Positions 26,696-59,895 of a stretch of DNA of 64,000 nucleotides are shown here, piece by piece. The DNA comes from Candidatus Manganitrophus morganii. Its GTDB lineage: Bacteria > Nitrospirota > Nitrospiria > SBBL01 > Manganitrophaceae. The stretch lies in assembly GCA_021651055.1 (NCBI GenBank), contig JAJHOH010000001.1:3782001-3846000 (forward strand), read 5' to 3'. The notes below the pieces were generated by a model. It saw only the letters and a list, made by a program, of their open reading frames with translations, was not told the DNA's origin and made no database searches. Position numbers and translations under genes: made by a program. Position 1 is the first letter of the stretch; every line of letters starts with the position of its first letter.

Positions 26696-26935
26696 ATGAA
26701 AGCAGTCTGTCCTACCTGTCAAAAAGAGATCGATTGGAAGGAGAGCCGTTATCGTCCTTTCTGTTCGGAGAGATGCAAATTGATCGACCTGGGCCGATGG
26801 GCCAGCGGGGACTATCGAATTCCGGCGCAGCCCGACGATGAAGAGGAAAAAGAAGATCCCGAGCCCTCCGAAGGGGAGGACGCTCATTCAAGTAAGCGTC
26901 CAAATGAGGGGGGCAACGGAAAATCTCCCGCGTGA
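26696..26935 (+). CDS. yacG: YacG-family zinc protein (DNA gyrase inhibitor)
   Basis: 79 residues. The four-cysteine zinc site is intact: Cys5 and Cys8 (CPTC) with Cys23 and Cys27 (CSERC), followed by the [16 protein letters not shown] block that defines the family. In E. coli the protein binds GyrB and inhibits gyrase. The C-terminal third is an acidic, low-complexity tail ([14 protein letters not shown]), longer than in many YacG proteins. Interesting only in that a GyrA-like stand-alone protein is encoded elsewhere in the window; no link is implied by position. Confidence 0.9.
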
Positions 26936-52125: not shown

Positions 52126-52776
52126 CTAAAACGTATTCCAGTTTAGGAAATCCCTTTCACGATAGAGCCGTTCCAGGTCGAGCGGGACGGCAATCGCATG
52201 CCTTCGGAGAAAGGAAACGATCGGTTTGAGGGTAAGTCCGACGGCGGCCAAATAGTCCCCCTCCAGCCGTTCGATAAAGCGCCGCCCTTCCCCCTGAAGA
52301 GAATAGGCCCCGGCCTTATCGAGCGGCTCACCGGCCGCGACATAACGGTCGATCTCAGCCTCAGCGATAGGCTTCATCAAGACCCGGATGGTCTCTACGC
52401 TTGTTTCAGTAGGGGGCTGATGCAGATCGATCAAGGAGACCGCCGTCAAAATTCGATGAGAGCGGCCGCTTAACCGGCGCAAAATCCGCTTGGCATCCTG
52501 CGGGTCGCGCGGCTTTCCGACCTTTTCCCCTTCACACTCAATCAGGGTGTCGCTCCCGATAATGACCCCTTCCGGAAATTCTTTGAGGACCGAATGGGCC
52601 TTCCCTTCGGCAAACGCAGTCACCTCTTCGGCAATAGACCGCCTTTCGCTGAGGATCTCCTCGAAATCAGGAGGGACGATTCGAAAGGGGAGGCCGAGAA
52701 GGGAGAGGATCTCTCTGCGGCGGGGAGAAGTTGAGGCGAGGATGATCTCTCGCCGGGCGCCGGAAGGAGGGCTCAT
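52126..52776 (-). CDS. maf: Maf-like nucleoside triphosphate pyrophosphatase
   Basis: 216 residues. IILASTSPRRREILSLLGL is the family's phosphate-binding N-terminus, and VIIGSDTLIECEGEKVGKPRD contains the conserved Asp and Lys of the active site. Maf proteins hydrolyse non-canonical or methylated nucleotides such as dTTP/UTP analogues. The start overlaps the dusB stop as ATGA, so the pair is translationally coupled. Confidence 0.92.
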   Translation of the reverse strand: MSPPSGARREIILASTSPRRREILSLLGLPFRIVPPDFEEILSERRSIAEEVTAFAEGKAHSVLKEFPEGVIIGSDTLIECEGEKVGKPRDPQDAKRILRRLSGRSHRILTAVSLIDLHQPPTETSVETIRVLMKPIAEAEIDRYVAAGEPLDKAGAYSLQGEGRRFIERLEGDYLAAVGLTLKPIVSFLRRHAIAVPLDLERLYRERDFLNWNTF

Positions 52777-53879
52777 CGGTATGAAACTTCGCTCATGAAG
52801 GGGGCGAGCAGCGCTTCGACCTCATCGACGTTGCGGACACGGACCAGCTTCTCTCGCAGCTGGCTTGCGCCGGGAAATCCCTTGCAGTACCAACCGAGAT
52901 GTTTTCTCATCTCTGCAAACCGGGAGAGAGGACGGCTCTCTTGAAAGATGCGGGCATGTTCCAGCGCCGCCTCCAGCCGCTCCAGGGGAGAGGCCGGCTC
53001 GTCCGGGATGAGTTCCCGTTCGTGATGGCTTAGTGCCTCGCGGAGAAGGCTCTTTTTTCGAAAGATCCACGGATTTCCCAGGGCGGCCCGGCCGATGAGG
53101 ACCCCATCGACGCCGCTTTCCCGAATGCGCTGGGCGGCCTCGTTGAGCGATCGAATATCGCCGTTTCCAAGGATCAATGTGCCGGAGCCGCGCGCGATGG
53201 AGGCCGCTTCGGCGATCGCCTTCCAGTCGGCGGCGCCGCGATAGCCCTGGTGCAGGGTTCGGCCATGGATGGAGATGGCGGCCGGTTTTTCTTCCAACAG
53301 GTGGGAGACCCACTCTTGGATGACGACGCGATTGACGCCAATCCGTGTCTTGACCGAAACGGGGAGGGGACGCCGCTCGGAAGGGGGGAGCTGTCCCGCC
53401 TCTTTTCTGCGGGTAAGCCATTCACCGATTTTGGGGTGAAGATCGACAATCGGAAGTGCGCCGCCGGCCACCCAGGCATCGATCCCTTGCCGGGCCGCCT
53501 GGAGAATCGCTTTCGCGCGGGGGGGATCGGCGATGAGCCCGGCCCCGCATCCCTTGGACGAAACCGCCTTGGCGGGACAGCCCATGTTGATGTCGAGGCC
53601 GTCGAATCCCAATTCGCAGACAAGCTGAGCGATCAGAAAGAACGATTCCGGTTTGGCGCCGTAGATTTGAGCGACAATGGGGCGCTCGATTTCATCGAAG
53701 ACCAAACCGCCCAACTCGCTTTCGGCGCCATGGAGGATTCCTTCCACGCTGGTGAACTCGGTCACAATCAGGTCGGGTTTCCCGTGGGTCGCCACGATCC
53801 GCCGAAAGCAGGGATCGGTCACCCCGTCCATGGGGGAGAGGGCGACGATCGGTTTGGGGATGTTGTTCCAGAAGGTCAA
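52773..53879 (-). CDS. dusB: tRNA-dihydrouridine synthase
   Basis: FMN enzyme reducing uridines in tRNA. 368 residues. Key segments: ALSPMDGVTDPCFRRI (flavin site), LDINMGCPAK, SSKGCGAGL with the catalytic Cys, ISIHGRTLHQGYRGAADW and LILGNGDIRSL. The C-terminal helical domain is present (HLGWYCKGFPGASQLRE). Bacterial Dus B subgroup is likely but not proven by eye. First gene of the dus-maf pair. Confidence 0.9.
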   Translation of the reverse strand: MTFWNNIPKPIVALSPMDGVTDPCFRRIVATHGKPDLIVTEFTSVEGILHGAESELGGLVFDEIERPIVAQIYGAKPESFFLIAQLVCELGFDGLDINMGCPAKAVSSKGCGAGLIADPPRAKAILQAARQGIDAWVAGGALPIVDLHPKIGEWLTRRKEAGQLPPSERRPLPVSVKTRIGVNRVVIQEWVSHLLEEKPAAISIHGRTLHQGYRGAADWKAIAEAASIARGSGTLILGNGDIRSLNEAAQRIRESGVDGVLIGRAALGNPWIFRKKSLLREALSHHERELIPDEPASPLERLEAALEHARIFQESRPLSRFAEMRKHLGWYCKGFPGASQLREKLVRVRNVDEVEALLAPFMSEVSYR

Positions 53880-54014: not shown

Positions 54015-57000
54015 CTATTGGGTTATGTACATAGCACGGGTCGTCCCGAAGATTAGCTCTTGTGCTCCATCATTGTTAATATCGGCAAAAGAGAGACTGT
54101 TGGGTACAATGTCGCCGAGCAATGGTGGGGAACTCCAAATTATTGTACCGGTCATCCCATCGACCGTGATGAGTTTAGCTGACGTTTCGAATGAAGAGTT
54201 GAAAGAGTTTTTGGAAGTTCCGATTAAGAGGTTGCCGCTTCCATCCAGGGGAACCGCCAATTCGGAAATCGGGACGGAAAGCGTGTATTGACCTTTTAGA
54301 TCAAAAGTCACTCCATCGTAGATGAAAACGGCTGTATCATAAGCGGAAGAGGTAATGATGATCTCTGGTGTCCCGTCGCTGTCCAGATCACCTACTGCCA
54401 AGTGGTTGCCGGCGTTTACACCGATTAACATATTTAAAAGGTAGACGTTTCCTTGCTTCTTGTAAACCAATAGGGACTCAGTGGCGGTGGCAATGATTTC
54501 TAAAGCGCCGTCTCCATCTAGGTCTGCAACCTCTAAGTCAAAAGCGCCATAGCTGGGTAGTTGGGTGCTCTTCCAAATTAGTGTTGAATTGAAAACGTCG
54601 TAGGCATAGATATAACCATCAACCGTTAAGGCGATCAGATCGTCATGTCCGTCCCGGTTCAAATCTCCGCGGGTGACCGCCCGTCCGATACCGAGATTGG
54701 CGGCAGAAGTCCACTCTGGCAAGTCGCGGATAAAATCGTAGACTGTGAAATAGCCATCATATGCGCTTGAGGTTGTAAGGAACACTTCATCAACGCCATC
54801 GCCATCATAATCGGCTCCACTAAGGGAGGCGATGCCACTAAAGTTAGTTCCGATTTCAGAACTAGTGGTGAAATTCCCGGTGACCGGATCAATACCTATT
54901 AAACGTGTGCCGCCATGGCCTGAATTGCTTCGAGGTGATGCGAATATGGCTTGTCTTTGTCCAGTGGAAGTGCTTAACCAATGTCCGCCGACGAACGGTC
55001 CATCAAGTTGCAAAAGGGCTGTTCCGTCGAACCACCTATCAAATCTTGTTCCATTCGTCCACTCCACCTGGATTGAGGGGTTTAACCCAGCAATCACGAG
55101 AGAATCCGGAAGGCTGTCCTCAACACCCGCTCCCCATACAAACTCTGGTGATCCATCGTTGTCCGTATCGCCGACGGTAATACTCCACACTCCATAATTC
55201 TGTTCACTAATGCTCCACTCTTGAGAGCCGGCCCCTCTAGATCCATCGTACGCGATTACATCTCCGAGAGGGCGATCAGCAACGATAATTTCGGCCTGCG
55301 GATCATGATCGATATTCGTTACTACTAAAGCACTTACTTCACGCTGGATTTCCCAAAGAGGTGATTTCAAAACGGCACTATACACCCGTATGAATTGAAG
55401 GCCATTGCTGACGATCTCCTCAACACCATCATTGTTCAGATCGCCCGTGTCAACAAGAGCGCCGAATCCGGCCCCATAGGCCCATTGATTTTCATGGGTT
55501 GCACCGTCGTAAACGTAACCATTGGAAGTAACGATCTCCAACGTAGGGTCATTATCAACATTCCCGATTGCCAGGGAAGGTCCTAGGTCAAGAGGAGGTG
55601 ACTGCCACTCCTGCCGAAGAGTGTCGGCATCATAAACATTGATGGTTTGCAGAAAGGAAAATGAGTCATCACCGAAGCCAAGGTAAATAATTTCTTCCCC
55701 ACCGTCATTGTCAATGTCGATGACGCGAATCGAGGAACGGAAGGAATAGCCATCGGTGATTTCTTTAACAATTTTTCGGTTGACACCATCCAAGATTATA
55801 ATCCCAGAACTAACGCCAACGATCATATCAGGGTGGCCATCACCGGTGAGGTCATGAGCAGTAATGGCCATGATTGAGGTGAGGTCGAAGGGGTAGACCC
55901 AATTCTGTACATAGTTGGTACCGTCAAAAATTAAAGTATAGAGGAGGTTTTGATTGGTAATCAGGACCTCATTCTTCAGGTCGCCATTAAAATCGGCGAT
56001 CACGATGCCATCTGGAGCAGCTGGGATTTGAATGCCTGTGCGTACCAGAGGCTTGGGATGGCCCGGATCAGTCACCGTAATGGTGCCGGCAGTTTCGACT
56101 GTAATTTCCCCCGAGGTGGCGCGTACTCCGAAATGAACTTCCAACGTTTCATCAAACATGGGACCGGTGGGTGTCCAGGAAATCTTCCCGGTCTGATCAA
56201 TTCGCATACCCCCGGGGCCATAAGCGAGCCGATAAGAGACGGAGTCCCCATCTGGATCGCTCACTCCTAACTGGAGTTCCAAGGGAACTCCATACGCCGC
56301 GTTAACTGGGTTTGTAGGTTCAGCAACGAGTGGCGAATCGCCAATAGTTATTGAGGCGATAATTGAGGTTGAGCCTAAACCATCGGAAAGACCGACGATA
56401 ACGGTGACAATATCTCCTTTAACGAATTGGTTCCCGTCGAGTGTCGGCGTATTCGCGCCATCAATCGGAGTTCCGTTACGTGTCCATGCGTAGGCGTAGG
56501 TCAACGGGTCGTTTTCCGGGTCTGACGCAGTCACCGTTGCCGTGAGGGTGTCGCCTCTTTTCGGCATGGCGGGAGATAGGGTCACGATGCCTGTGGGAGG
56601 CTCATTGGGGGAGGGCGCGCCCGTGAGGTTCGTCCACGAATAAAAAGCCGCCGTTTCAAAAATCCCGTCACCATCGGTGTCCACTTCGATGCGTGCCTTG
56701 CTCGCAGATATCGCGAGCAACCGCGCCCGTGAACCCTCGGCGCCAATGATCACCAGCAGGCCGCCGTCGTCCGGAAAATTCAATCCTTCATTGCTGAAGA
56801 TCAATGGCGAGCCGGTGGCGATATTGACGTAACCTTCCACCGAATCATAGATTCGACCGGAGATGCTTTCAGTGTGCCTGGTTGGATTCAAGTAATCATC
56901 GTAAACGAAGACGATGACGACGCTTTCCAACTTGAATAATTTGGCGGAGCGGCTGTCTTTAAAAATTCCGTTGACGATTAGGATTTCACGTTGATCAGAG

Positions 57001-57638
57001 AGTAGGACTTGGCTGCGTATTGAGCCGTTGAAAATGACTTCAGAAAGTGAGTCTTCTGTCCTCAGTGCGGTAGATTGAATTGTGCCGTCGAGTATGATTC
57101 CCGTGCCAGGGTCGACCGCATCAACTTGGAAAGTCGCATCGCCGTTGGTCATGAAACCGTCACCGTCATCGCAATCGACATAATGAAACTTGAGCGTGCC
57201 CGTGCCGTCATCGTTAATAGCGCCGGTTATCGTTACCGTGCCACTGGAGGTGCAATCCTCCGTTTCATTCACCGGATTCGGGGCGGCCGAAGCAAGCGAG
57301 GTCTTCATCAATGCCTGGGTGGATTGAAGGAAGGCGCGGCGGGCCGAAGCAGTTTGAGCGATAAACGAGCGGGAGAGTAACTGAGGTTGCCCCGAACGTG
57401 GTGCCGCCGACGCGTTGCTCGGTTTAGAAACAGCGAGAGTGCCGGGTCCGGTGAGGACGTTCGCTATTAGGAGATTGGCCTTCTCGCCGGTGATGTGAGC
57501 CGGATCGGTCTTGCCGGTGTAGTTGACCTCCGTGGGGGTCGAGGTGCCTCCACCGTCGCCACTCCCGCAGGCCCCTATTCCTAAGGCAGAGATAAAAAAT
57601 AAAACTACAATGATGCTGCTCGATTTATTGGAATTCAT
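54015..57638 (-). CDS. Large FG-GAP/VCBS-repeat surface lipoprotein
   Basis: 1207 residues. Lipoprotein signal: SIIVVLFFISALGIGAC with the cysteine near residue 24, then a Gly-rich linker. An Ig/cadherin-like segment follows (about 340-520; 'TVTASDPENDPLTYAYAW'). From about residue 540 a long array of FG-GAP/VCBS repeats has at least a dozen calcium loops such as DLTGDGHPDMIV, DLNNDGVEEIVS, DYDGDGVDEVFL and DLDGDGALEIIA, predicting one or two integrin-like beta-propellers. Such proteins bind extracellular ligands or surfaces. AT-richer than its neighbours and without operon partners. Confidence 0.88.
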   Translation of the reverse strand: MNSNKSSSIIVVLFFISALGIGACGSGDGGGTSTPTEVNYTGKTDPAHITGEKANLLIANVLTGPGTLAVSKPSNASAAPRSGQPQLLSRSFIAQTASARRAFLQSTQALMKTSLASAAPNPVNETEDCTSSGTVTITGAINDDGTGTLKFHYVDCDDGDGFMTNGDATFQVDAVDPGTGIILDGTIQSTALRTEDSLSEVIFNGSIRSQVLLSDQREILIVNGIFKDSRSAKLFKLESVVIVFVYDDYLNPTRHTESISGRIYDSVEGYVNIATGSPLIFSNEGLNFPDDGGLLVIIGAEGSRARLLAISASKARIEVDTDGDGIFETAAFYSWTNLTGAPSPNEPPTGIVTLSPAMPKRGDTLTATVTASDPENDPLTYAYAWTRNGTPIDGANTPTLDGNQFVKGDIVTVIVGLSDGLGSTSIIASITIGDSPLVAEPTNPVNAAYGVPLELQLGVSDPDGDSVSYRLAYGPGGMRIDQTGKISWTPTGPMFDETLEVHFGVRATSGEITVETAGTITVTDPGHPKPLVRTGIQIPAAPDGIVIADFNGDLKNEVLITNQNLLYTLIFDGTNYVQNWVYPFDLTSIMAITAHDLTGDGHPDMIVGVSSGIIILDGVNRKIVKEITDGYSFRSSIRVIDIDNDGGEEIIYLGFGDDSFSFLQTINVYDADTLRQEWQSPPLDLGPSLAIGNVDNDPTLEIVTSNGYVYDGATHENQWAYGAGFGALVDTGDLNNDGVEEIVSNGLQFIRVYSAVLKSPLWEIQREVSALVVTNIDHDPQAEIIVADRPLGDVIAYDGSRGAGSQEWSISEQNYGVWSITVGDTDNDGSPEFVWGAGVEDSLPDSLVIAGLNPSIQVEWTNGTRFDRWFDGTALLQLDGPFVGGHWLSTSTGQRQAIFASPRSNSGHGGTRLIGIDPVTGNFTTSSEIGTNFSGIASLSGADYDGDGVDEVFLTTSSAYDGYFTVYDFIRDLPEWTSAANLGIGRAVTRGDLNRDGHDDLIALTVDGYIYAYDVFNSTLIWKSTQLPSYGAFDLEVADLDGDGALEIIATATESLLVYKKQGNVYLLNMLIGVNAGNHLAVGDLDSDGTPEIIITSSAYDTAVFIYDGVTFDLKGQYTLSVPISELAVPLDGSGNLLIGTSKNSFNSSFETSAKLITVDGMTGTIIWSSPPLLGDIVPNSLSFADINNDGAQELIFGTTRAMYITQ

Positions 57639-57947: not shown

Positions 57948-59066
57948 ATGGATGATTTTCTCTTTTTAGACGGGCTGACCCCGCTTCAGCGGCGGTTGAT
58001 CGATATCTGCCGCGCGGAAGCGCCGAATGATCGGATCTTGATTAACGCGAAAGATATTCTCAAGGTCTTGGCGCTCAACGATTGGAAGATGGACGAGAAT
58101 GACTTTGAATATGATTGCGAGGCCCTTAGCTCTTACGTCGAGCCGATCGAGTCGTATCCCCCGAACAGCCTTGGATATGCCTACCGGATGATCCTTCAGC
58201 TCGGTCTTCCGTGGCGCTGTCGGTATCCCCATTTTGAGCTGCGCGGGATGTATGGCGATCCGCATGATGAGGTCCCCCAGGGACCCGAATATGTCGAGCT
58301 TCGGCTCTCTCGTTTTTCCCATATCGTTATGCCGGTCGGAAAGGCCCCGCTTCTTCCCCTCGCCCTTTTGAACGGCGCGAGCTTGCCCGATGGAACGCGG
58401 ATCCCTCCGCATCATTTGGAAGAGCTTTGGACCGCCTTCGAGCAGATCCGGCAAGCGCCGGAGCTGCCGCTTGATGAGCTGATGGAGTTTCTGCCGGGAC
58501 CCGACTTCGCCTCCGGCGGGGTGGTCGGCGGACATGCCGCCGTCCGCGCGCTCTACGCGGATGGAAAAGGGGAGCTGATCCTGAGGGCCGACATCCAGAC
58601 AGAGATGGAGGGGGCCCGGACCCGCCTCTCGATCAGCTCGCTTCCTGACGGGGTGTTGGTGAGGACAGTGATGCAGCAGCTTCGCTCATTGCTGGAAGAG
58701 GGGACGATTCAACTCCACCTGCTCAAGAACGCGTCGGAGCGAAATCAAATCAGAATCGTTCTTGATGCTCCCCGGCGCTGGTCGGCGGAGGCCCTCAAAG
58801 AGATCCTCTTCAAAAAGACAGATCTGGAAAAACGGGTTCTCTTTCACTGCTCGGCGTCGGATGCCTCCGGATGGAAAGGGGGTGTCTCATTAATCGAGAC
58901 GCTGAAGCAGGCGACCTCCCGCTGCACCCTTTCGTGGGAGAGAAAAGACGACGAACCGATTGAGCATATTCCGCTGCTCAGGGAGATCCAAGAGTTCGGC
59001 GGCTACAAAAGCCCATTGAGCGACCTGATCGATCCTCGGAGGAGCCGTCTTTTAAATATTCCGTAA
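57948..59066 (+). CDS. Stand-alone degenerate GyrA/ParC-like protein
   Basis: 372 residues. Several segments align with the breakage-reunion domain of type IIA topoisomerase A subunits, in order: DGLTPLQRRLI (8-18), RYPHFELRGMYGD (92-104), GPEYVELRLSR (112-122, with Tyr115 at the position of the DNA-linking tyrosine but Glu instead of the preceding Arg), LLNGASLPDGTRIPPHHLEEL (spread over 140-160), DELMEFLPGPDFASGGVV (176-193) and a tower-like part. The HPHGD motif and the GIAVGMAT loop are lost, and the C-terminal beta-pinwheel is absent. It is too short and too altered for a normal gyrase; no ParE/GyrB partner is adjacent. Function unknown. Confidence 0.7.
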   Translation: MDDFLFLDGLTPLQRRLIDICRAEAPNDRILINAKDILKVLALNDWKMDENDFEYDCEALSSYVEPIESYPPNSLGYAYRMILQLGLPWRCRYPHFELRGMYGDPHDEVPQGPEYVELRLSRFSHIVMPVGKAPLLPLALLNGASLPDGTRIPPHHLEELWTAFEQIRQAPELPLDELMEFLPGPDFASGGVVGGHAAVRALYADGKGELILRADIQTEMEGARTRLSISSLPDGVLVRTVMQQLRSLLEEGTIQLHLLKNASERNQIRIVLDAPRRWSAEALKEILFKKTDLEKRVLFHCSASDASGWKGGVSLIETLKQATSRCTLSWERKDDEPIEHIPLLREIQEFGGYKSPLSDLIDPRRSRLLNIP

Positions 59067-59238: not shown

Positions 59239-59895
59239 ATGGAAAGACTGACTGCCGAGCAGCTGAGGAAAGAGCAAGAAAATACCCTATCCGCTCAGAA
59301 GCTGCATTATGGGTTTCTCGCGAAGGTCCTTTTTGTGGTGATGGACCTAATATACGGGAAGGGGAGAAGCCTTAGTAAATTTAAGGTGCTCGAGGTGATC
59401 GCCCGGGTCCCCTATCAGGCGTGGGAGCATGTTGCTTATATCGCGATTACCCACACTTACAAGCAGGCCGATTTTGCGCGAAGGATTTTTGATCGGATCC
59501 AAGAGAGCCGAATTCAGCAGGACAATGAGCAGTGGCATCTTCTGATTTTGGAAGAGTGGGTACATCGTCTGCAGATTCGGGAGAACTTTCTCCTCTATCG
59601 AATCATTCCTCAGATTATCGCTTTTTTCTATTATCATATTTGCTGGTTTTTATATGTCGTTCGTCCCTCCATGAGCTACGCATTGAATGCGCAGTTCGAA
59701 GACCATGCCGAGCATGAGTACATGCGCTACGTTCAAGAACATCCGGAGTTGGAGTCGGAGCCCTTTGAAAGCGCGTTTCAATCCGACTTCGGGGATTTCA
59801 CATCGATGGCCGATGCGGTTCGTCAGATCGGCTATGACGAGCGGGTTCACAAAGAAGAGAGCCTCAGTCGAATCCGCGATGCGCGCTTTTCCTAA
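59239..59895 (+). CDS. Alternative-oxidase-like diiron protein
   Basis: 218 residues. The four-helix diiron pattern of the AOX/PTOX family is present: Glu52 in LEVIARVPYQ, Glu97 and His100 in NEQWH, the acidic helix FEDHAEHEY (residues 153-161), and Glu201/His204 in DERVH. A hydrophobic region (about 115-145) fits the membrane-facing surface of these monotopic quinol oxidases. The segment NAQFEDHAEHEY is especially close to known family members. It may pass quinol electrons directly to oxygen without pumping protons. It has its own promoter and no obvious operon partner. Confidence 0.82.
   Translation: MERLTAEQLRKEQENTLSAQKLHYGFLAKVLFVVMDLIYGKGRSLSKFKVLEVIARVPYQAWEHVAYIAITHTYKQADFARRIFDRIQESRIQQDNEQWHLLILEEWVHRLQIRENFLLYRIIPQIIAFFYYHICWFLYVVRPSMSYALNAQFEDHAEHEYMRYVQEHPELESEPFESAFQSDFGDFTSMADAVRQIGYDERVHKEESLSRIRDARFS

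Follow-up and report, generated by a model that had tools for sequence, protein, structure and literature searches.

A predicted catalytically dead GyrA paralogue kept beside normal DNA gyrase in manganese-oxidising Nitrospirota and some close relatives

The protein described here, referred to as pseudo-GyrA, is encoded in a window of 64,000 nucleotides (the whole stretch of DNA analysed) and is a variant of a known fold, that of the type IIA topoisomerase A subunit. On balance, it appears to be an ancient, clade-restricted and dead paralogue of this subunit which serves as a protein-binding scaffold, with gyrase as its likeliest partner. The winged-helix and tower scaffold has been kept, while the GyrB-docking arm and the catalytic, gate and wrapping parts were lost. 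Judging from conservation, a partner protein would be bound through the rebuilt wing of the former active site and the first tower helix. This partner may be the cell's own gyrase, the leading candidate by way of a guess, and pseudo-GyrA could then act at the DNA gate, either regulating gyrase or serving as a decoy. The open reading frame starts with ATG, is preceded by a GGGG-type stretch as plausible ribosome-binding site, and lies in a genome assembled as one contig of 4.29 Mb. The features discussed below are collected in Table 1.

Table 1. Features of pseudo-GyrA and of other genes in the window (window coordinates).
Feature	Position	Strand	Basis or remark
Whole gene, 372-aa pseudo-GyrA	57948..59066	+	ORF; PF00521; 17-member family
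Winged-helix domain remnant, aa 8-127	57969..58328	+	net charge -7 in window protein
YPPNSLG (aa 70-76), aligned with YHPHGD-S/A of GyrA	58155..58175	+	alignment
Former active-site wing, aa 88-121	58209..58310	+	mean 3.48 bits vs 3.05 overall
Glu114-Tyr115, aligned with the catalytic pair Arg121-Tyr122 of E. coli	58287..58292	+	alignment, 17 members
Tower domain, aa 128-312	58329..58883	+	49/184 identities with GyrA of this genome
NGASLPDGTRIPPH, aa 142-155, shortened GyrA SGIAVGMATN loop	58371..58412	+	alignment
C-terminal segment, aa 313-372	58884..59063	+	start of coiled-coil helix, then family-specific GGYKSPL, then GyrA NTD end
DPRRSRLL (aa 362-369), corresponding to GDERRTEI of the GyrA NTD end	59031..59054	+	profile scan
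dus	52773-53879	-	conserved divergent neighbour
maf	52126-52776	-	conserved divergent neighbour
YacG, known gyrase inhibitor family	26708-26851	+	PF03884, 4.1e-23

The earlier note, made from the sequence alone, had recognised the segment order of GyrA from DGLTPLQRR to PGPDFASGG, and this relationship was borne out by matches far beyond chance. Residues 133-305 match PF00521 (Pfam) with an E-value of 2.6e-23, PRK05561 of NCBIfam is matched at 1.5e-32 and ParC/GyrA chains of the PDB at 1e-22; the scores against the NCBIfam GyrA/ParC models are far under their cut-offs. The family profile of pseudo-GyrA reached up to 1.7e-37 against PDB GyrA/ParC chains, and profile-profile comparison with the GyrA N-terminal domain (NTD) gave 6e-42 across residues 7-319. 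Because of these Pfam, PDB-profile and profile-profile matches, the kinship to GyrA/ParC is certain. The structural comparison with GyrA59 proposed in the note agreed with the HMM result: the AlphaFold model (pLDDT 81) superposes on GyrA59 (4ckk_C) over 330 residues with a Z-score of 34 and an rmsd of 2.5 Å, the winged-helix plus tower fold being present in the model. A second prediction with full NTD rows left the fold unchanged, though with less confidence, and brought no clarity for the tail. In common with GyrA59/ParC55 (PF00521), pseudo-GyrA carries the winged-helix/tower order, the PGPDF and PPHNL segments and the DxRRT motif of the NTD end.

In E. coli GyrA, Arg121 and Tyr122 form the catalytic pair, Ile174 is the residue that intercalates into and bends the DNA, and the N-terminal arm docks and holds GyrB. 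The winged-helix part of pseudo-GyrA begins at DGL, and the arm is therefore missing. The absence of HPHGD, of the Arg before the Tyr and of the GIAVGMAT loop, reported for the single protein by the note, was found in all 17 members of the family. At the Arg121 place 15 of them carry Glu and none carries Arg, and the intercalating Ile (SGIAVG) is deleted throughout. The D87 place is occupied by Arg in 17/17 members, the Lys of DGLKP is lost, and about 20 residues following the Tyr are missing in the alignment with GyrA. The tyrosine at the catalytic place is indeed there in the window protein, but it is not conserved across the family (Tyr in seven members, Ser in seven, Leu in two and Gln in one); since it is replaced in 10 of the 17, the hint of retained catalysis found no support.

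HHalign did not bridge the excised coiled coil, and the tail was for that reason tested by a profile scan. Its DxRRTxL motif scored best at the GyrA NTD end (profile score 16.8, next best 9.3; one of 3000 shuffles equally good), where it was also placed independently by MAFFT. About 130 residues forming the coiled-coil C-gate are thus absent while the motif closing the NTD is kept, which points to an internal excision of coiled coil and exit gate and not to a simple truncation at the C-terminus. The tail has low confidence in both AlphaFold predictions (pLDDT 32-49 in the first). Pseudo-GyrA ends at the NTD-end motif, with neither a C-terminal DNA-wrapping domain nor a GyrA box, in agreement with the missing pinwheel noted before. 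In comparison with GyrA59/ParC55 it thus lacks the N-terminal arm, the Arg-Tyr pair, HPHGD, the intercalating Ile, the coiled-coil exit gate and the C-terminal domain, and its winged-helix part is acidic. From the residues and the model together, such a protein would be unable to cut or pass DNA. With every DNA-cutting part lost and the gene preserved, it would have to do a different job.

Among 269 genomes of the class, 17 carry pseudo-GyrA; they comprise every one of the six from the window's genus and the majority of the sister family f5, together with one from the sister family f3 and three from the more distant family f11. In a phylum-wide sample nine of 395 genomes were positive, all belonging to these 17 carriers, and among the public-record relatives listed the labels were Candidatus Manganitrophaceae and Nitrospirota. 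In 282 genomes from a single other phylum, searched without a positive control there, no pseudo-GyrA was found. The members are 41-98% identical and 372-378 aa long, except for one cut by a contig end. In the phylogeny they form one separate clade (SH-aLRT 100), as the note had asked to be checked; it is distinct from the GyrA clade of the class and its stem is very long, for which reason the tree does not fix how it is placed with respect to GyrA or ParC. Within the genus, dN/dS amounts to 0.04-0.15 (about 0.1), a sign of purifying selection. Conservation within the family is highest in the former active-site wing and at the tower start (aa 153-190). Ten residues that are invariant in the family and rare in GyrA/ParC (P88, W89, D104, D107, G112, P113, W161, E165, R168 and Q169) cluster in this wing and in the first tower helix, a concentration which suggests a rebuilt binding surface at the old DNA-cutting site.

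The genome contains one detected GyrB (G000:C1:2094062), which adjoins the real gyrA; the two genes, named from their sequences, stand together after dnaA and dnaN. This GyrB is about 1.75 Mb away from pseudo-GyrA, and the note was thus right that no GyrB/ParE gene is a neighbour. Family models of GyrB and GyrA, searched against the genome, matched a single GyrB and, for PF00521, two places, namely gyrA and pseudo-GyrA; no ParC/ParE pair was thus detected. Across genomes, no pattern was seen between pseudo-GyrA and the presence or absence of ParC. A role as inhibitor or decoy, as put forward in the note, is possible for pseudo-GyrA. Binding of GyrB by the usual route is unlikely, as the arm that holds GyrB is missing. 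A more specific and rather doubtful proposal has the dead GyrA half joining or capping the DNA gate of the sole detected type IIA topoisomerase and so tuning gyrase in a cell where no topoisomerase IV was found. The gyrase inhibitors YacG, GyrI, Qnr/MfpA and CcdB have folds unrelated to the GyrA type, and with these there could be a functional analogy only. The YacG homologue mentioned by the note is indeed present in the window, but at a distance of about 31 kb it lends no weight to a gyrase-inhibitor reading, and a link between the two genes was rejected on this ground.

The divergent genes dus and maf accompany pseudo-GyrA in 10 fetched loci, and this arrangement is shared by two families (the window's genus and f5). 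Between dus and pseudo-GyrA, the source genome encodes a repeat-rich, secreted-looking protein of 1207 aa (54015-57638, minus strand); the two genes are about 66 bp apart in genomes G002 and G004. Directly downstream of pseudo-GyrA lies a gene for an alternative-oxidase-like protein (59239-59895, plus strand; PF01786, 7.5e-9), which was found in three loci of the window's genus. In f5, pseudo-GyrA is directly followed by a MobA-like nucleotidyltransferase (PF12804, weak; L035 10336-11280 and L036 8274-9218, also L037, L038, L039, L043 and L044), and the two genes overlap by 4 bases where checked. The transferase copies adjacent to pseudo-GyrA are without the motif Lys, which is kept in the copies inspected in G000, G001, G004, G008 and G014. 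With the two genes adjacent or overlapping and this Lys missing, f5 may have an operon made up of two degenerate enzymes. In G014 pseudo-GyrA is absent while dus-maf and the downstream transferase are retained, with an apparently clean junction between dus and transferase (L148 5828-8065), showing that the gene can be lost. Given this loss and its absence from most of the class, pseudo-GyrA is dispensable for gyrase in general.

Among the alternatives, a scaffold or adaptor outside DNA topology, for example one working with the MobA-like transferase of the one family, is unlikely, though the likeliest of them. The adjacency in seven loci, the 4-base overlap and the lost Lys speak for it; in the window's genus, however, the transferase is located elsewhere, it also occurs in relatives without pseudo-GyrA, and the Lys loss may represent a single event in one lineage. 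An architectural protein that sits on the old G-segment groove without cutting is improbable. Such a role could draw on the retained winged-helix fold, on the DNA-contacting second Arg of HRR (Arg in 16/17 members, the remaining one being a truncated sequence) and on the often basic tail. The winged-helix part, however, is strongly acidic, its net charge ranging across the family from -4 (a partial sequence) to -16, whereas 92 GyrA/ParC sequences average +2.6 (range -2 to +5), and neither the Lys of DGLKP nor HPHGD, Arg121 or the intercalating Ile has been kept. For these reasons pseudo-GyrA probably does not hold a G-segment, and the suggestion of the note that it is a DNA-binding protein derived from GyrA is disfavoured as far as binding is concerned.

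That a reduced but active subunit works with the chromosomal GyrB, at least in lineages keeping the Tyr (the window's genus and G007), is very unlikely, as the partner Arg is Glu, the arm and exit gate are missing and the Tyr is not a family trait; an active topoisomerase was rejected on these replaced residues. The many lost motifs could also be those of a decaying pseudogene or an assembly artefact, but the frame is open in 17 genomes, dN/dS is low and the neighbours are conserved, which leaves this explanation with next to no probability. The pseudogene was rejected on dN/dS and presence in 17 genomes, and derivation from GyrA, as opposed to a random copy in one genome, agrees with fold, tree, distribution and purifying selection. 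In the collections of viral contigs, phages and plasmids searched, no family members were found, and a phage or plasmid origin gained no support there; the matches listed stay at GyrA/ParC level with an identity of 28% or less, and the viral relatives among them are of ordinary GyrA/ParC type with 23-28% identity. PADLOC gave no match, and a phage-defence role was rejected. The protein-binding scaffold, with gyrase as likeliest partner, remains the preferred reading.

No description of a dead, exit-gate-less bacterial GyrA paralogue under selection was found in the open-access literature searched, and gyrase is not mentioned in the comparative genomics paper on the Manganitrophaceae (PMC9040806). 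In Synechocystis, sll1941 is a second GyrA-like gene annotated as gyrase A or ParC subunit (PMC9825172); both it and pseudo-GyrA are second GyrA-type genes beside a normal gyrA, but only pseudo-GyrA is truncated and, by its residues, dead. Viral gyrA-like sequences without GyrA box have likewise been suspected not to be gyrase (PMC9348778), a suspicion that pseudo-GyrA shares as a GyrA relative.

Manganese-oxidising Nitrospirota and some close relatives thus keep pseudo-GyrA alongside a normal DNA gyrase. If it acts on gyrase, this would be a case of regulation by a pseudo-subunit; if it is not directed at gyrase, the GyrA core would have been reused for another purpose. Either way, the automatic label 'DNA gyrase subunit A' would mislead.
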